Positions 9,890 through 18,803 of a stretch of 32,177 nt of DNA are shown in pieces. The DNA lies in contig JARXAE010000029.1 in the NCBI GenBank assembly GCA_029866005.1, forward strand, positions 1 through 32,177, written 5' to 3'. The notes under the pieces were generated by a model that saw only the letters and a program-made list of their open reading frames with translations, ran no database searches and was not told the DNA's origin. This stretch comes from Fimbriimonas sp. (GTDB lineage Bacteria > Armatimonadota > Fimbriimonadia > Fimbriimonadales > Fimbriimonadaceae). Positions within the stretch are counted from its first letter, which is position 1. Each line of letters opens with the position of its first letter. Made by a program: the position numbers and the translations under genes.

Positions 9890-12172
9890 CTACTCCGGTG
9901 TTACAACGGTCGTGATCATGCTTGAGAAGGCGGCGGAACCGATGGAGGAACGTACGAGTTCGATCAAACCAGCGCGGTTCCCTTCCCATCCAACGAGAAT
10001 GAGTTTACGTTTGGCACGGGTCATGGCGACGTATTGGAGGCGGAGGAGTTCAGCGGCTCGGTTAGTCTTTTCTTGCTCCTTGAGGAATTCAGATGAGTAG
10101 TTTGTGGCCCGTGGCTGCCAGTATCCGAACCAGCCCCTATCGGCATCGAAGATGGGGGCGTTGACGGCGCGGGCTTTGTGCATCATCGCATCGGCAATGA
10201 TGACGACGGGCCACTCTAGACCCTTGGCAGAGTGAATCGTGATTGTTGTGACAAGGTCTTCATTTGAGTCAACGATGGACGGATCGGCTTCGGCATCGGA
10301 GAGCCGTTCGATGTCTTGGATCATTGCTGCGTATTCGAGGGCGTTCAGCTCGGGTTTGGCAGCGGCCATGACCAGGAGTTTGCGGACGTTTTCGATCCGC
10401 TTTCGTCTCTCCTGCCGGGTGGCAAGGTTGAGGAGGAGGTCGGAGTCGGCCATGATTTGGGAGATGACTTCCCATGCCGGGAGACGGTCTGCGAGCTCTC
10501 TCAGCGGAATAAACCATTTTTTGAATCGTTCAAACTTCACTTGGTCCTCTTCGATCTCAGGCTGGAATTCGAAGGGGTTGCCTTCATGGGCACCGATAAG
10601 GACGGTGCTGTCGAGGGAGAGCTCGCAGACGGGACTGCGGAGGCAGGCGATGAGGGCGAATCGGTTCTCAGGATCTGCGAGAGCGGTGAGGGTGTTGCAG
10701 ATATCGCGGACTTCGAGCTTTGCGTAATAGTTGGTCTTTCCAGCATTTTCTCTCACTCCGATGCCATTTCGGCGGAGATAGCTAGCGATGATCTTCCCGT
10801 GTTTGTGGTTCGAGGTAAGTATGGCGATATCGTTAAGTTCAATACCCTCTTGTTGTAGATTTCGAATACGTTGAACGAGTTCATGCCACGCCTCTTTTGC
10901 CCCGAGCATGAGGACTTCGGAGTGTGCTTGACTCGGTTGCCAAGGGACGTCCTCAAGGTTTCGATTGAGGACACCGGTCATGGGCTGATAGGTTTTTGGC
11001 ATTGCGGAGGAGAAGACCATATCGACGAGCTCTTGGATGGGCTGGTCGCTGCGGTGGCTCTTGCTGAGGCGCATGATTTGATCGATCTCGTAGCCTTTGA
11101 TGAAGTTTCCGACCGCGTTTCGGAAGAGGAAGATTGACTGCTTATCGTCGCCGACGAGCATCTTTGAGTCGGGCTGCAGTGCCTTGAGGAGCCGCATCTG
11201 GTTCGGGTTAAGATCTTGGCTCTCATCAACCATGACGTGGCGATACTGGCGGTTGAGTCGATCTCTTACTTCGGGCGAGCCTTCGAGAAGCCGGACTGTT
11301 CGAGCCTCCAGAGCCGTGTAGTCAAGGTGATTGCTTTGGCGGTGTTCTTCTTCGAGCATCGACCAGGCGGTGAGGGCAAGCTGAGCGATGCCGACGATAA
11401 TTCGGGCTCCGTTAAGGGAGTCGCCGTGAGTAATGACGGGCTTCAGCCAAGGGTAGGCGCCTTGTTCTTTGTTGGCTTTGAGATCCTTGAAGACGTTGTT
11501 GTGCCAGTCGGTCTCGCCGATAGGGGGGCGATAGGCGACAGGGAGTTCGGCTTTGAGGTCTTCGTCGGTGTTGCGGAGGAAGTCCTCGGGTGTAGCGTAA
11601 AGCTTGGTGAGCTCAGTGCGGGAGTGGCCACTGTCACGGAAGCTGCGGAGCGCATTGGCGACGAGGTCCATCAGCTTGGCATAGCTACCGTGGCCATCGC
11701 GCTCGGTCTTTCCGGCGAGGCGCCGAAGGGCAAAGCGCGTTTGACCACCTTCTTCCTCGGCGTAGCCGATCGCTCGCTTGATGCAGTCGGTGGTTAGCCT
11801 TACCGACTCTCCTCCGGTCACAACTTCGAACTTTGGATCAAGCCCGGCTGCGGGGGAATTCTCGCGAAGAACACGCTCATAGAAACTGTGAATGGTTTGG
11901 ATGGGGCCGGTTTCGGCTTCTTGCGCTTCATCGAAAAGGTGACGTTCCCGCAGTTTGGCGACGATTCGGCTCTTCATCTCTGCCGCGGCTTTTTTAGTAA
12001 ATGTGATCGTCAGGATTTCGCTCGGCCGGATGCCGTGGTTTTGGATGAGGTTGAGGTAGCGCTCGGAGAGGACCGTGGTCTTTCCCGAGCCGGCGGAGGC
12101 GATAACGACAAACTCGCCTTGGGTTCGTTCGACAACCGCTTGTTGTTCAGCTGTCAACTCAATTACCTTCAT
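9890..12172 (-). CDS. UvrD/AddA-like superfamily 1 DNA helicase without nuclease domain
   Basis: A 760-residue SF1A helicase. Motif I is ASAGSGKT (residues 25-32), Ia ITFTKKAAAEM, II VMVDESQDLN, III LVGDDKQSIF, then SHRSDQP, motif V TIHSAKGLEWPVV and VI LQYVAMTRAKRKL. The insertions resemble AddA/RecB more than UvrD, and the AddB-like neighbour supports that. However, the protein stops about 25 residues after motif VI region, so the C-terminal RecB-type nuclease of AddA (normally some 1,200 residues in total) is missing. The start at 12172 was chosen because GGAGG lies five bases upstream. The adjacent ATG at 12175 is too close, and the longer frame (to 12292) reads through the upstream gene. 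It overlaps that gene by 14 bases. Likely role: DNA end unwinding in double-strand break repair. Confidence 0.9.
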   Translation of the reverse strand: MKVIELTAEQQAVVERTQGEFVVIASAGSGKTTVLSERYLNLIQNHGIRPSEILTITFTKKAAAEMKSRIVAKLRERHLFDEAQEAETGPIQTIHSFYERVLRENSPAAGLDPKFEVVTGGESVRLTTDCIKRAIGYAEEEGGQTRFALRRLAGKTERDGHGSYAKLMDLVANALRSFRDSGHSRTELTKLYATPEDFLRNTDEDLKAELPVAYRPPIGETDWHNNVFKDLKANKEQGAYPWLKPVITHGDSLNGARIIVGIAQLALTAWSMLEEEHRQSNHLDYTALEARTVRLLEGSPEVRDRLNRQYRHVMVDESQDLNPNQMRLLKALQPDSKMLVGDDKQSIFLFRNAVGNFIKGYEIDQIMRLSKSHRSDQPIQELVDMVFSSAMPKTYQPMTGVLNRNLEDVPWQPSQAHSEVLMLGAKEAWHELVQRIRNLQQEGIELNDIAILTSNHKHGKIIASYLRRNGIGVRENAGKTNYYAKLEVRDICNTLTALADPENRFALIACLRSPVCELSLDSTVLIGAHEGNPFEFQPEIEEDQVKFERFKKWFIPLRELADRLPAWEVISQIMADSDLLLNLATRQERRKRIENVRKLLVMAAAKPELNALEYAAMIQDIERLSDAEADPSIVDSNEDLVTTITIHSAKGLEWPVVIIADAMMHKARAVNAPIFDADRGWFGYWQPRATNYSSEFLKEQEKTNRAAELLRLQYVAMTRAKRKLILVGWEGNRAGLIELVRSSIGSAAFSSMITTVVTPE

Positions 12173-14978
12173 CATTTCCTCCAAACAGGTCTTCTTCTTC
12201 GCTGGCGAGTTGGGAGCGACGGCAAAGGTCGCTGACATTGCAGTGTGCGCAATAGTCGCCGGGAGTAGCCAGGAGTTGGCCAGAACGAGCATTCTTGAGT
12301 CCGTCTAGATAGAGAGATTTCAGGGTGTTTCGCAGGTCGTCGCGGGTGGCCTCGCCTTGGCCGAGATTGATAACGCTGAGCTCGTCTGTTGATCGCGGGT
12401 GGGGCGCGTCTTCGGGGATGTAGATGATTTTGGTTCGGCGTTCGGCAAGGCCCTCGATCTCCACTTCGACCTCGTGGACATCGACCCACGCGGCCTCTAT
12501 CATGGAGCCGTATTCGAGGGTGAGGTCCTCTCGGTTGGAGCCGGTGATCTTCTCCGGCGGATTCATTCGGTAGATGTGGAGAGTTCTTCGTGAGTTATGT
12601 TCGGTCACACCAGCGAGGGACTCTTTGTAGATTGTCGCCGGATTGAAGTCCTCGAGGCGTCCACCGATTTTGGTATTGAGGGGGTCGCGGTGCCACTGCT
12701 CTCGCGAGGCGAATTCGCGCTCAACGAGCGCAGCAAACACACGCTCGGAGCCTTGTTCCAATAGATCAAACTCCCAAGCAGAAAGGAAGGAGCGGATCTC
12801 CTCGAGGACTCCAGTATAGGCAGCGCGGAGGGATCTCTCTGCCGACTCCGGGTCGGGGCTGGTAAGGAGTCGGGCGAGATCGGGAACCCGGAGGAGGCGT
12901 CGCCAGTAGTCACCCTGCTCCCAAGGGATCGGGAGCTTGCGTTGGGCAAGAAACTGAAACGAGCAATTTCGCATTGCCCGAAGGTCTCGGGGACGGATGG
13001 GGGATTTGTCGTAGCGGATCAGATCTTGGGCGGGTTGTGTCTCAAGATGGTTGCTCGGGGGTTGCTGAGCGGATTGCTGGAGGGTAGTTGACATCTGCTT
13101 GTCGGGCTCAAGTTCGCAGTCGTCAGGCGCGGGAAGAAGATCGCGTCGGGGGTGGACGAACTCTTGGACATCCGGGCAAACCCGGCGGATTTCTTCGAGA
13201 TAGAAGGCGGCGATATTGTCGCGATCACCATCGATTTGGGGATAGCTGAGAACGATTCCCCGTGAGGGGCAGGCGCAGAGGCGGTAAAAATGATCGCGCT
13301 CGGCGGCGGCGATGTCAAAGCTGTTGATGATCGGGGGCTCAGCGGGAAAGGCAGCGAGGTCGTCGTCACTGAGGATGGGATTTTCGGAGCGGCGTCGAGG
13401 AAAAGCGCCTTCGAGCAGGCCGAGAGCAATGACGTAATCCGTAAGCCCGATCTCATCGACGCTGGTGACAATCTCGATCCCATCTGGCGGCTTGGGAACG
13501 CTGGCGTCGCCTGAATCGAGGACTTGCTTAAGGATTTTGATCCAGGCTTGGAAGGTGATCGGATCAGGGCGATTTGCGTGGCGAACGACGGCGTCTTGAC
13601 CCAGGGCGGCGAGAAGGGCGGTGAAAGCGCGTTGGTCTCGGCCGTCGTAGCCACGCTGGATGACGGTTTGAAACCACGGGGATTCTTCGACGCCAGAGCG
13701 GATGAATGCATGCCATTCAAGAGCGGTTCTTTGCTGAGAGGGGACGCTTGATCGGAGCGCGCGAAGGTGTTCAACCGTTGCTTTCAGCTCATCGGGAAGC
13801 TCTTGCTCGGCGGTGAGAGCTGCGAATTCTTCCCACTCGTTTCCGCCCCGGATGTGGGCTTGTTCGATGGCATTGGCGATTTCGGCGGAGTAGCCGATGC
13901 CTAAATATCCGCTTTTCAGTAACGCCGAAAGCTTGCGGATGTCGCTGGATTCGAGGAGATCGAAGATGGCAAGGAGACTTTTTACGAAGCCGTTGGCAAG
14001 AAGCGGAGTGCGGCGAGCTAGGCGGACCGGGACCCGCATTCGCTGGCTGGCGGCGATGAGAACCGGGAGATAGGTTTCGCGGTCTCGGGCGAAGATGGTG
14101 ACGCTTCCTTCTCCGCTCAGAGCGGTTGCGCGACGCAGAGCCCATTCGGCTTCGGAGAAGGGATCGCCCACGGTGTGGATTTCTGTAAGATCGAGAGCGG
14201 GACCATCGGTGTCGAACTCGGTGAAGAGGTTGTTGAGGAGGCGGTTTCCTTGCCCAGGGGAGGTGGACGGCTTTTTGAGGAGCTCGCTCGTGACTTTGGA
14301 AGGGCGAAAAAGTGGGGCGTCGGTGGCGTGCCGGTCAAGAACGAGCTGGACCTCGGCGCCTTGGGTGGAGAGCCAGGTGAGCCACCGTAAGGCGAGGGGG
14401 TGGAGCTCTCCTCGGTTGAACACAAGGAGGCGGGCTTCTTGACCGTCGAGGTCGAGGGACTCTTCGAGGCATGCCTTCATCAGACTTGACGTTGAGGAGG
14501 CAGATGCTTCGCTGAGGGTTCGCTCGACCTCGGTGGCGATGGCGTGAAGAGCTTCGGCTTTAGCTCCGGTGACACCTTCGGTGACCAAGTCAAATCCTAG
14601 GTCCCAGTGCTGGAACTGCCTGAGAACATCCCTGACCACCTCGTGGAAACCGGACTTCTCACGGACTTTTTCGAAGGGACCGAGATGAGGGAGGGTTTCG
14701 CACGCGAGTTCGATCGCGGTAAGGACTTGGCGTGATGATGCTAGACGAGGGCTCGAGCCATTCAGTTGGGTGTGCACTTGACGGACAAACTCGCCGAAGG
14801 GTTTGAGATCAACCAGCGAGGATTCATCAGAATAGGTTCGGAGGGCACTCAAATAGGAGTCGGAAAATGAGGTGACAACGCCATAACTACGCTTACCAAA
14901 ACGCTGCACAAGGCCAGAGGCGATGCTGGGCGAGGGGATTGTTTGGATCACCTCAAATTTGCCCTTCGCCATATGCAT
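12159..14978 (-). CDS. AddB-like protein with iron-sulfur cysteines but degenerate active sites
   Basis: A 939-residue protein related to AddB/PD-(D/E)XK helicase-nucleases. Four cysteines fit the AddB iron-sulfur cluster: Cys672 (MRNCSFQF, cf. CPFxxF) and Cys910, Cys913, Cys919 (YCAHCNVSDLC). Two expected features are missing. The N-terminus has no GxxGxGK(S/T) P-loop, and the nuclease core reads GLAERR (from about 843) and VINLGQG (869-875) instead of the usual GRIDRID and VIDYKTG, so the Asp and Lys metal and catalytic residues are lost. It is probably a structural or DNA-scanning partner of the helicase encoded next, as RecC is for RecB. The start could be ATG 14978 or, better spaced from the -10 box, ATG 14972. 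It is cotranscribed with the helicase (14-base overlap). Confidence 0.85.
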   Translation of the reverse strand: MHMAKGKFEVIQTIPSPSIASGLVQRFGKRSYGVVTSFSDSYLSALRTYSDESSLVDLKPFGEFVRQVHTQLNGSSPRLASSRQVLTAIELACETLPHLGPFEKVREKSGFHEVVRDVLRQFQHWDLGFDLVTEGVTGAKAEALHAIATEVERTLSEASASSTSSLMKACLEESLDLDGQEARLLVFNRGELHPLALRWLTWLSTQGAEVQLVLDRHATDAPLFRPSKVTSELLKKPSTSPGQGNRLLNNLFTEFDTDGPALDLTEIHTVGDPFSEAEWALRRATALSGEGSVTIFARDRETYLPVLIAASQRMRVPVRLARRTPLLANGFVKSLLAIFDLLESSDIRKLSALLKSGYLGIGYSAEIANAIEQAHIRGGNEWEEFAALTAEQELPDELKATVEHLRALRSSVPSQQRTALEWHAFIRSGVEESPWFQTVIQRGYDGRDQRAFTALLAALGQDAVVRHANRPDPITFQAWIKILKQVLDSGDASVPKPPDGIEIVTSVDEIGLTDYVIALGLLEGAFPRRRSENPILSDDDLAAFPAEPPIINSFDIAAAERDHFYRLCACPSRGIVLSYPQIDGDRDNIAAFYLEEIRRVCPDVQEFVHPRRDLLPAPDDCELEPDKQMSTTLQQSAQQPPSNHLETQPAQDLIRYDKSPIRPRDLRAMRNCSFQFLAQRKLPIPWEQGDYWRRLLRVPDLARLLTSPDPESAERSLRAAYTGVLEEIRSFLSAWEFDLLEQGSERVFAALVEREFASREQWHRDPLNTKIGGRLEDFNPATIYKESLAGVTEHNSRRTLHIYRMNPPEKITGSNREDLTLEYGSMIEAAWVDVHEVEVEIEGLAERRTKIIYIPEDAPHPRSTDELSVINLGQGEATRDDLRNTLKSLYLDGLKNARSGQLLATPGDYCAHCNVSDLCRRSQLASEEEDLFGGNDEGN

Positions 14979-14997: not shown

Positions 14998-15528
14998 GTG
15001 ATTTGGTCGCGGCGGCGGAGGTGGATGGGAAATATTGTTCCGCTGTTTCCGAGTGTTTTGGTTGCGGCTTGTGCGGCTGGATTAGGGTTGGGGGTTTGGA
15101 GTCTGGGGTTTGGAGTGCTCGTTGCGATTCCGTTGATCAGCCGGTATGGGTTTTGGGAGAATTCGGAGATTCGATCTGAGTTGCTGGAGAATTTTCCCGA
15201 GGGGGGAGCTTTGGTTGGGTTTGTCTTCGATCGACCTGCGGATTGGCTCGATGCCCATGCGGAAGTAGGTCTGCTGACCGTGGCAAAGAAGAAACTAACG
15301 ATAAAGACCGAGGAGCGGGTGGTTCAGATTCCCTTCACCCCAGGGACCCGGATCGGAACACAATTCAACATCCATCAACTTGTTGGGCTTGGCGGCTGGA
15401 TTCGAATTGAGAACGAGGGGTTACCTACATTACTCACTGAGAGCCGGGAGGCGGAGACGATGTACGCCAGCAAGCTGAAAACAGCTGAACTTTACAAAAG
15501 GCTGATACAAGAAAAAGGAGGCTCCTAG
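14998..15528 (+). CDS. Small membrane protein of unknown function
   Basis: A 176-residue protein. A basic N-terminus (RRRRW) precedes two closely spaced hydrophobic helices (about residues 13-47), followed by a soluble beta-rich domain (about 60-150) with VGLLTVAKKKLTIKTEERVV. No family is recognised. Topology suggests an inner-membrane protein with its main domain in the cytoplasm. The GTG at 14998 is six bases after a TAACAT box. The ATG at 15025 (MGNIVPLF) has GGAGG three bases upstream and is the alternative start. The stop codon TAG is the centre of the terminator hairpin shared with the flagellin gene. A 14-bp tandem repeat (15091-15116) lies in the membrane-helix coding part. Confidence 0.75.
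   Translation: MIWSRRRRWMGNIVPLFPSVLVAACAAGLGLGVWSLGFGVLVAIPLISRYGFWENSEIRSELLENFPEGGALVGFVFDRPADWLDAHAEVGLLTVAKKKLTIKTEERVVQIPFTPGTRIGTQFNIHQLVGLGGWIRIENEGLPTLLTESREAETMYASKLKTAELYKRLIQEKGGS
15091..15116. repeat. Two-copy tandem repeat, 14-bp period
   Basis: GGGGTTTGGAGT occurs at 15091-15102 and again at 15105-15116, separated by CT. It lies in the coding sequence for a hydrophobic helix. Confidence 0.7.
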
Positions 15529-15560: not shown

Positions 15561-16988
15561 TTATCGCAGGAGCGAAAGAATCGACGAACCACCCTGGTTT
15601 GCCTGTCCGAGGATGGACATTCCAGCTTGCTGCATCACCTGCAACTTGGTGTAGTTGGTCATTTCCTGAGCGACATCGAGGTCTCGGATGGAGCTCTCGG
15701 AAGCCGACAGGTTCTCTCTCATGTTGGTCAGCGACCGGCTGTTGGTTTCAAGAACGTTGCGCTGGAAGTTACCAATCCTTCCTCGCATTGCCGAGACTTC
15801 TTCAACCGCCTTGTCGAGGACTGCAAGTGCGCTGGTGGCGGACTGAGCCGTCGAAAGATCAAGGTTGTTCACTGTGACACCGGTCACAACTCCCGAGCCG
15901 AGCTGTCCAGAGGACATGTTTCGAAGAGCGAGGTTGGCGGTCACACCAGAAAGGAATCCAATCTGGAAGCTGGAATCAGCTGCAACAACTCGTCCAACCG
16001 CTGCGGCGGCCGAGACGGCGTTTCCACCTTCACTCACGTTCAGCCTATTTCCATTAGCGTCGGAGAGGGTTAGACCATCTGCTCCGCTTCGTCCACCAGT
16101 GAACAGGGCAGCCACGCCACCGATGGTGACGGTTGCCGCTGCATCAACTCCAGCGGCGTTTGCCGTTGTGTTAGCTGCCGAGCTGACAACGCCAGTCGTA
16201 TCGGTGAAAGTAATCTGCTTGTTTGCACCGGTTTGAACCGATTGGAAGGTGAGTTGGTTACCCGTCGCGTTCCAAGCAGCGGTGACTCCGGTTTGACCCG
16301 ACGCGGAGTTGAACACGTTGGCGAGCGATGCACCTGTGGTACCTGCCGAGATGTTGAAGTTGACGCCGTTGAGCGCAACCGTACCGGACTGGAGTGCACC
16401 AGCTGTCAAGAGTGACGTAGCGGTGTACAGGGCACGAGTTGCAGCAGTTGTCTGTTGCAAGGTGATGAGACCGTTCGCCGTGATGGAAGTCGTTCCGAGA
16501 GCGCCGCCGAAGCTGAAGCCAGCGACCTTGGCAGCGGCCGAGATCTGCGTGGTGGTACCGGCAGAACCGTCGAGCAGCTTTCGACCCGAGTAGGTGACGT
16601 TTCCAGCAATTCGGTCGATCGAAGCGATAATCGAAGTGACCTGATCTTGGTTAGCAGCAACCTGAGAAGCCGTCAGGGTAGCCGAGTTACCGGATGCGAT
16701 GGCAAGACCACGAGCATCGCTCAGAAGCTTGTTCATTTCACCAAGTGCGTTTTCAGCAGTCTTAGCGTAGTTCATCGCTTCCTGGTTGTTCCGCAGGGCG
16801 GCATCCATCGAGTTGATCTGTGAGCGGAAAAGCTCTGACGAGATAAGACCCGCCGGATCATCCGACGCGTCCTTGATGCGAAGACCAGAGCTAAGCTTGC
16901 CCATGGACTTTGTCATCTGGTTCGTTGCCTGGCTGACGCTGTTGTAAGCGCTGAGTGCGTTTGCGTTGTTATTAATTCGAAAACTCAT
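15561..16988 (-). CDS. fliC: Flagellin, copy 1
   Basis: The 475-residue filament protein, exported by the flagellar type III apparatus (no Sec signal). The conserved D0/D1 N-terminus is present (SFRINNNANALSAYNSV, LSSGLRIKDASDDPAGL), as is the C-terminus (NMRENLSASESSIRDLDVA, MTNYTKLQVMQQAGMSIL). The central domain is Thr/Ala/Gly-rich, with VTIGGVAALFTGGRSGADG. The start ATG at 16988 has GGAGG eight bases upstream; the longer frame to 17042 is untranslated leader. It is nearly identical to copy 2, which lies 1,815 bases away on the same strand with the same leader and terminator, and differs at the end (GGSSILSLLR against GGQSVLSLLR). No other flagellar genes are in the window. Confidence 0.97.
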   Translation of the reverse strand: MSFRINNNANALSAYNSVSQATNQMTKSMGKLSSGLRIKDASDDPAGLISSELFRSQINSMDAALRNNQEAMNYAKTAENALGEMNKLLSDARGLAIASGNSATLTASQVAANQDQVTSIIASIDRIAGNVTYSGRKLLDGSAGTTTQISAAAKVAGFSFGGALGTTSITANGLITLQQTTAATRALYTATSLLTAGALQSGTVALNGVNFNISAGTTGASLANVFNSASGQTGVTAAWNATGNQLTFQSVQTGANKQITFTDTTGVVSSAANTTANAAGVDAAATVTIGGVAALFTGGRSGADGLTLSDANGNRLNVSEGGNAVSAAAAVGRVVAADSSFQIGFLSGVTANLALRNMSSGQLGSGVVTGVTVNNLDLSTAQSATSALAVLDKAVEEVSAMRGRIGNFQRNVLETNSRSLTNMRENLSASESSIRDLDVAQEMTNYTKLQVMQQAGMSILGQANQGGSSILSLLR

Positions 16989-17104
16989 GTTTGTTTCCTC
17001 CGTGATTGTCTTTGAGCCGTGACATTGGACATCCATGCCCACAGTCTCAGAAGAACCCCGTCTCCGTGAACTTCTGACGACCCCCTAACTAACCCAAATA
17101 TGGT

Positions 17105-17375: not shown

Positions 17376-18803
17376 TTATCGCAGGAGAGAAAGAACCGAC
17401 TGACCACCCTGGTTTGCCTGTCCAAGGATGGACATTCCAGCTTGCTGCATGACCTGCAACTTGGTGTAGTTGGTCATTTCGTTGGCAACGTCGAGGTCTC
17501 GGATGGAGGACTCGGAAGCCGACAGGTTCTCTCTCATGTTGGTAAGAGATCGGCTGTTGGTTTCAAGAACGTTGCGCTGGAAGTTACCAATCTTTCCTCG
17601 CATTGCCGACACTTCTTCAATCGCCTTGTCGAGAACTGCTAGTGCGCTGGTTGCGCCCTGAGCCGTCGAAAGATCAAGGTTGTTCACTGTGGCACCTGCA
17701 ACGACTCCACCTCCAAGCTGTCCAGAGGACATGTTTCGAAGAGCCAAGTTGGCGGTGACACCAGAAAGGAATCCAATCTGGAAGTTCGAATCAGCTGCAA
17801 CAACTCGTCCAACCGCTGCGGCGGCCGAGACGGCGTTGCCACCTTCACCAATGTTCATCTTGTTTCCGTTAGCATCAGTCAAGGTCAGACCGTCTGCACC
17901 ACTTCGTCCACCGGTGAAGAGAGCAGCCACGCCACCGATGGTGACAGTTGCCGCTGCATCAACTCCAACGGCGTTGGCCGTGGTGTTAGCCGCAGAGCTG
18001 ACGACGCCAGTCGTATCCGTGAAGGTGATCTGCTTGTTCGCACCGGTTTCAACCGATTGGAAGGTGAGCTGGTTACCCGTCGCGTTCCAAGCAGCGGTGA
18101 CACCAGTTTGTGAGGACGCCGCGTTGAAGACGTTGGCGAGCGATGCACCTGTGGTACCTGCCGAGATGTTGAAGTTGACACCGTTGAGCGCAACTGTTCC
18201 CGAAGTCAACGCACCGGTAGTCAAGAGTGACGTCGCGGTGTAGAGTGCTCGAGTTGCCGCAGCTGTCTGTTGCAACGTGATGAGACCGTTGGCCGTGATC
18301 GAGGTCGTTCCGAGAGCGCCGCCGAAGCTGAATCCTGCGACCTTGGAAGCGTTCGAAATCTGCGTGGTGGTACCGGCAGAACCATCGAGCAGCTTTCGAC
18401 CCGAGTAGGTGACGTTTCCAGCAATTCGGTCGATCGAAGCGATAATCGAAGTGACCTGATCTTGGTTAGCAGCAACCTGAGAAGCCGTCAGGGTAGCCGA
18501 GTTACCGGATGCAATGGCAAGGCCACGAGCATCACTTAGAAGCCGGTTCATTTCACCAAGTGCGTTTTCAGCGGTCTTGGCGTAGTTCATAGCTTCTTGG
18601 TTGTTCCGCAGTGCGGCATCCATCGAGTTGATCTGTGAGCGGAAAAGCTCAGACGAAATGAGACCCGCCGGATCGTCCGACGCGTCTTTGATGCGAAGAC
18701 CAGAGCTAAGCTTGCCCATGGACTTTGCCATCTGGTTGGTTGCCTGGCTGACGCTGTTGTAAGCGCTGAGTGCGTTTGCGTTGTTATTAATTCGAAAACT
18801 CAT
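17376..18803 (-). CDS. fliC: Flagellin, copy 2
   Basis: A 475-residue flagellin with the same D0/D1 termini and the same length as copy 1. Differences are scattered, mainly conservative substitutions such as TNQMA for TNQMT, DANGNKMNIGEGG for DANGNRLNVSEGG, and NEMTNY for QEMTNY. The leader carries GGAGG eight bases before the ATG, and the bipartite element lies 118 bases upstream. Long stretches are identical in DNA to copy 1, and at least one stretch of about 93 bases is identical to copy 3. Filaments may be mixed polymers of the three subunits, or the copies may be used under different conditions; the sequence does not decide. Confidence 0.97.
   Translation of the reverse strand: MSFRINNNANALSAYNSVSQATNQMAKSMGKLSSGLRIKDASDDPAGLISSELFRSQINSMDAALRNNQEAMNYAKTAENALGEMNRLLSDARGLAIASGNSATLTASQVAANQDQVTSIIASIDRIAGNVTYSGRKLLDGSAGTTTQISNASKVAGFSFGGALGTTSITANGLITLQQTAAATRALYTATSLLTTGALTSGTVALNGVNFNISAGTTGASLANVFNAASSQTGVTAAWNATGNQLTFQSVETGANKQITFTDTTGVVSSAANTTANAVGVDAAATVTIGGVAALFTGGRSGADGLTLTDANGNKMNIGEGGNAVSAAAAVGRVVAADSNFQIGFLSGVTANLALRNMSSGQLGGGVVAGATVNNLDLSTAQGATSALAVLDKAIEEVSAMRGKIGNFQRNVLETNSRSLTNMRENLSASESSIRDLDVANEMTNYTKLQVMQQAGMSILGQANQGGQSVLSLLR

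Follow-up and report, generated by a model that had tools for sequence, protein, structure and literature searches.

The window analysed here, a stretch of 32,177 nucleotides from Fimbriimonas sp. of the order Fimbriimonadales (Armatimonadota), carries on its minus strand a helicase gene of the addA type and, directly upstream of it, the gene of an AddB-like partner (Table 1). The two reading frames share 14 bases, and the adjacency of addA and addB is also seen at other loci of the clade described below. For addA, the ATG at 12172 (MKVIELTAEQ) is the likelier start and gives a protein of 760 aa; an alternative open reading frame from 12292 would encode 800 aa.

Table 1. Features of the addAB locus and its surroundings in the window
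Feature	Position	Strand	Remarks
addA-type SF1A helicase gene, 760 aa	9890..12172	-	complete motor, C-terminal nuclease absent
addB, 939 aa	12159..14978	-	no P-loop in the helicase-like domains; PD-(D/E)XK domain inactivated; all Fe-S cysteines kept
Inactivated AddB nuclease domain, about residues 663-939	12162..12992	-	sub-threshold match to Pfam PDDEXK_1, 19.5 bits
Fe-S ligand Cys672	12963..12965	-	
Fe-S ligands Cys910, Cys913, Cys919 (CAHCNVSDLC)	12222..12251	-	
AddB residues 787-793 (SLAGVTE), expected place of motif II G-x-x-D	12600..12620	-	alignment with nuclease-active relatives
AddB residues 799-805 (TLHIYRM), expected place of motif III D-x-K	12564..12584	-	alignment with nuclease-active relatives
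Gene of a 176-aa protein	14998-15528	divergent from addB	no Pfam match; next to addAB at 22 of 25 family loci
Two similar flagellin genes in tandem	15561-17042 and 17376-18803	-	just upstream of addB

The AddA protein keeps all SF1A motor motifs, including the Walker A motif ASAGSGKT at residue 25, VDESQD at 315 and motif VI, RLQYVAMTRAK, at 711. A profile search of the PDB with an alignment as query gave AddA of Bacillus subtilis as the top match (3u44_A, E 1.8e-79). The best NCBIfam model was addA_Gpos, whose score of 234.6 bits lies under the cut-off of 707.7 bits. The AlphaFold model of AddA (mean pLDDT 84) superimposed on 3u44_A with 716 aligned residues and a Z-score of 29.5; PcrA ties with 3u44_A in Z but aligns over 565 residues only. 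Residues 5-758 correspond to residues 10-958 of the 1232 residues in 3u44_A, and only the linker and the nuclease are missing. An assignment to a defence system was rejected, as the PADLOC matches of the helicase (GajB, RTasHel) are of the general UvrD kind and there are none for AddB.

For AddB, the sole match in the corresponding PDB search was again the B. subtilis protein (3u44_B, E 2.6e-12). Its AlphaFold model, also with a mean pLDDT of 84, fitted B. subtilis AddB (4ceh_B) over 877 residues with a Z-score of 27.4, compared with 20.8 for RecC and 20.0 for AdnA. Inspection of the sequence found no P-loop, and the four iron-sulfur cysteines named in the initial annotation (Cys672, Cys910, Cys913 and Cys919) were confirmed together with this absence. 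Profile search and comparison of the predicted structures thus assign the two proteins to AddA and AddB, the fold matching over almost their full length. By sequence and predicted fold, the pair is AddAB and not RecBC or AdnAB.

Neither subunit retains a nuclease. The initial annotation had described a helicase that stops after motif VI without the C-terminal RecB-type nuclease, and AddA indeed ends at residue 760, 39 residues beyond that motif. Such a domain is absent from AddA in the window's own family (f1) and its sister family (f5), where 36-59 residues follow motif VI as against 320-373 in the nuclease-bearing AddAs of the phylum. In AddB, motif II (GVIDRID), motif III (DYKLG) and the QxxxY motif of nuclease-active relatives align with SLAGVTE, TLHIYRM and LEYGSMI (residues 821-827), respectively. 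At the six site positions that hold H, D, D, K, Q and Y in the phylum's nuclease-active AddBs, the window has D, A, I, R, E and M. In the model, the segments aligned with the motifs form strands at 790-794 and 797-803 and a helix at 816-830. The loss of the AddB site had been recognized in the initial annotation, which took GLAERR (843-848) and VINLGQG (869-875) for the motif positions. Both are located C-terminal to the aligned motifs; correcting their placement leaves the conclusion unchanged.

Could a cryptic site of displaced residues survive in AddB or AddA? The PD-(D/E)XK superfamily tolerates migrated residues, and the fold of the AddB domain is predicted to persist in the AlphaFold model. 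However, in the dead domain of the clade no lysine reaches a conservation of at least 70%, and hence no conserved D/E occurs together with a conserved lysine. The charges that are conserved (E755, D/E842, R848 and R920) are common to active AddBs as well and are therefore structural, with no displaced site visible. AddA has only 36-59 residues past motif VI, and we regard a cryptic site as very improbable.

Truncation, assembly error or pseudogene decay would likewise account for a missing domain, and nothing beyond that missing domain speaks for them. The same AddA ends recur in 42 orthologues, from independent assemblies of which at least three are single contigs; since all AddA orthologues end at the same point, the sequencing error that could have shortened the helicase gene is ruled out. 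Compared with its two nearest relatives, the window's proteins are 87% and 78% identical, and the dead nuclease domain, with 88.5% and 75%, is as conserved as the rest. Synonymous differences are saturated (pS 0.74-0.80), so that an exact Ka/Ks is not computable, at a dN of only 0.08-0.17. Judged from these substitutions, purifying selection is strong, the dead domain included, and the chance that the locus is an artefact or a decaying gene is negligible.

The loss is fixed in a clade. A contig scan with a single AddB sequence gave no matches, and it was the AddB alignment as query that found the relatives. In f1 and f5, the nuclease site is lost in all 47 AddBs compared, none of which keeps the histidine or the D-x-K pair; Cys672 is present in 47 of the 47 and Cys910, Cys913 and Cys919 in 46. 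These dead AddBs form one clade with an SH-aLRT support of 100, and leaving out every column from residue 651 onwards does not change this. By comparison, 31 of 33 AddBs from other families (f2, f3, f6, f8, f12, f13, f14, f24, f25, f28, f34 and f40) keep all six site residues, and the AddB of f4 (L230) matches the active-nuclease profile across the whole domain. The exceptions among the 33 come from genomes G101 and G104. In G101, whose AddB (L204) lies on one contig of 3.44 Mb, K is replaced by T, H by R and Q by R with the Fe-S cysteines kept, and a short AddA is encoded elsewhere in the genome; this AddB is a case of independent decay, and with the short AddA it possibly makes up a second, independent nuclease-free AddAB. 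In G104, AddA keeps a nuclease.

The short form of AddA is more widespread than the dead AddB. Every AddA examined in the order is short, those of f2 and f4 have no nuclease match, and in a further 14 loci, taken from other families of the phylum, AddA continues for 59-108 residues past motif VI. The AddABs of f2, f3, f4, f6, f8, f12 and f28 resemble the window's pair in their short AddA without nuclease and orthologous AddB, but differ in that nearly all have an AddB with the H-D-D-K-Q-Y site and thus represent a one-nuclease form. Because other Armatimonadota keep the AddB site (31/33), many of them with an equally short AddA, the simplest reading of the sequences would be a stepwise loss from two nucleases to one, in AddB only, and then to none. 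In this scenario, AddA may have lost its nuclease more than once.

Several loci show other arrangements. In f2, f8, f12 and f28, addA and addB lie apart in most genomes, the operon having been split or never formed there. In G068, a member of the window's own family, a single open reading frame of 2028 aa (L120:3739-9825, minus strand) joins two complete proteins, an AddB that has the nuclease motif and the Fe-S cysteines and an AddA that bears a nuclease. The fusion coexists with the nuclease-free AddAB of the same genome and was apparently acquired as a second system. A few other genomes (G011, G038 and G030) likewise have, beside a resident pair with short AddA, a second AddAB-like locus (L117, L118 and L119, respectively) in which AddA is of full length and nuclease matches occur.

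The genome of the window itself (2.8 Mb, 97% complete) encodes two UvrD-type helicases, AddA and a separate PcrA/UvrD-like one, and a search of it for a second AddAB, RecBCD or AdnAB found none. RecJ, RecO and RecF are all present; for RecJ the same holds in 52 of 52 good genomes in the sample of the order. The genome has just one other PDDEXK_1 protein, a stand-alone Cas4-like protein of 253 aa (G000:C11:147687-148412) with an intact site (IVDYKSG), four cysteines and a Pfam PDDEXK_1 score of 124 bits. Among curated models it comes closest to AddB, AddA and Cas4, and it has weak PDB matches to the nuclease structures 9iab/9iac. This nuclease was found in 34 of 34 f1 and 8 of 8 f5 genomes of the sample and also in nearly all others. 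As it is universal in the order, it was rejected as a specific compensating gain: being equally present beside active AddBs, it is available but not specific. In G039 its gene lies one gene from addB in the same orientation (L230:425-5584), and in G049 it lies on the addAB contig about 10 kb away. SbcCD was ruled out as a replacement nuclease, since the sbcD model finds no match in the window's genome and scores above its cut-off in just 1 of 62 genomes. An operon partner was likewise dismissed, the recurrent neighbours being only the 176-aa protein and a nitrilase, neither of them a nuclease.

We also considered the latch that in B. subtilis AddB is formed by a salt bridge between E129 and R629 (PMC4824097). 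The corresponding pair in the window is Q121 and L541. Arg629 is kept in 33 of 33 active AddBs as against 35 of 47 dead ones (Fisher p 0.001, with relatedness ignored), so that most members of the dead clade retain the latch arginine and it is lost in the window's sublineage, where regulation may differ. As a lead, this hints that Chi gating may matter less once there is no nuclease to switch off.

In AddAB as known from its structure, AddA is the motor that pulls on the 3' strand, and the path of the 5' strand leads past the nuclease domain of AddB. We propose, with a probability of about 0.72, that the window encodes a genuine AddAB heterodimer that has become an end-unwinding machine free of nucleases, with a separate 5'-3' exonuclease and RecFOR acting downstream. 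AddA would be the sole motor, pulling the 3' strand, and AddB a motor-dead scaffold and strand guide. The dead nuclease domain and its Fe-S staple would have been retained for end binding and strand routing, binding DNA without cutting it, as in RecC, which carries an inactivated nuclease domain used as a strand guide (PMC1185551). The output would be two unwound strands. A separate 5'-3' exonuclease, for which RecJ and the stand-alone Cas4-like protein are the likeliest candidates, would remove the 5' strand, and RecFOR would load RecA onto the 3' strand. Genes for such a route (RecJ, RecF, RecO and the stand-alone nuclease) are present in the same genome; we infer helicase activity, the role at DNA ends and the partner nuclease. 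Mutants of model bacteria provide precedents. RecB1080CD of Escherichia coli, a helicase without nuclease or RecA loading, recombines via RecJ and RecFOR (PMC3375238), and nuclease-dead AddAB of B. subtilis repairs nicks like the wild type, requiring its helicase and RecFOR (PMC12748557). In the latter mutant, an extra recJ deletion was without effect and the other nuclease was unidentified in that study (PMC12748557).

Two other explanations start from the same nuclease-free pair. The stand-alone Cas4-like protein could restore cutting in trans, either as a dedicated subunit or as a partner docked to AddAB, and the system would then be a split AddAB. Its intact site, its position as the sole other PDDEXK_1 protein of the genome, its occurrence in all 34 own-family and all 8 f5 genomes sampled, its closeness to the AddB, AddA and Cas4 models and its linkage to addAB in G039 and G049 are all in keeping with such a role. 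Yet genomes with an active AddB have it just as often, its gene is unlinked to addAB in the window's own genome, and two linked cases among about 60 genomes are little more than chance would give; we consider a split AddAB unlikely, if worth keeping in sight. The equal presence of RecJ and the stand-alone nuclease beside active AddBs weighs against either of them as a specific compensation.

Alternatively, the pair may no longer resect and may take part in some other process on DNA, for example remodelling forks or separating strands to feed SSB without nucleolysis. Nuclease-dead AddAB suffices for nick repair by SSB loading in B. subtilis (PMC12748557), and the uneven retention of Arg629 (33/33 active against 35/47 dead AddBs, with Q121 and L541 in the window) points the same way. 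Against this stand a sequence and a predicted fold that are still those of an end-processing AddAB, the latch kept in most dead-clade members, and the finding of no other end-processing helicase complex in the genome. The evidence favours a separate nuclease over a role outside resection, which we judge improbable. A broader version of our proposal, at somewhat under even odds, is that nuclease-free AddAB is the lineage's sole end-processing motor. Breaks would then be repaired by pure strand separation together with SSB and RecFOR, resection would be left entirely to other enzymes, and Chi control would be relaxed. Outsourced resection would resemble the eukaryotic pairing of a helicase with a separate nuclease, as in BLM/EXO1 and Sgs1/Dna2.

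To our knowledge, AddAB, AdnAB and RecBCD are treated as helicase-nucleases, and the need for their built-in nucleases has been asked only with laboratory mutants. Throughout a whole lineage, Fimbriimonadales and kin, end unwinding appears to be naturally separated from end cutting. Such an ordered loss, AddA first and AddB second, in proteins otherwise conserved down to the Fe-S staple of the dead domain, allows the question to be addressed by comparing f2-type relatives, which have one nuclease, with the dead clade, which has none. The clade also offers a predicted natural helicase-only enzyme, in which a nuclease domain has once more gone the way of the one in RecC. What is new is a naturally fixed nuclease-free AddAB, as read from its genes, with a nuclease partner that is a candidate only; our literature search, although incomplete, found no report of such a natural AddAB, nor of AddAB in Armatimonadetes.

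The motifs, the lost site and the AddB without P-loop support the initial view of a complex with one motor and no nuclease, unlike AddAB, AdnAB or RecBCD. AdnAB of mycobacteria is similarly a pair of SF1A-type proteins with the same domain order. Both of its subunits bear nuclease domains, whereas the window's pair has none in either subunit and an AddB without P-loop. The closest counterpart is AddAB of B. subtilis (PDB 3u44, 4ceh), which both models match over nearly full length and which shares the subunit pair, the single AddA motor, the motor-inactive AddB and the Fe-S staple; the differences are an AddA without C-terminal nuclease, the vanished AddB site and the Q/L latch. RecBCD shares the inactivated PD-(D/E)XK domain of RecC that guides a strand (PMC1185551), but has an active RecB nuclease and a second motor, RecD, neither of which is present here, and as a match for the window's AddB, RecC comes after AddB by sequence as well as by fold. 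Among natural cases, the nearest parallel that we found is isopod Wolbachia, where the nuclease of AddA alone has been lost (PMC4224334). Also close are two laboratory mutants, E. coli recB1080 and B. subtilis AddA-dNUC AddB-dNUC, which keep the helicase without nuclease and in which repair remains possible (PMC3375238, PMC12748557); the state described here, by contrast, is natural and fixed over two families.
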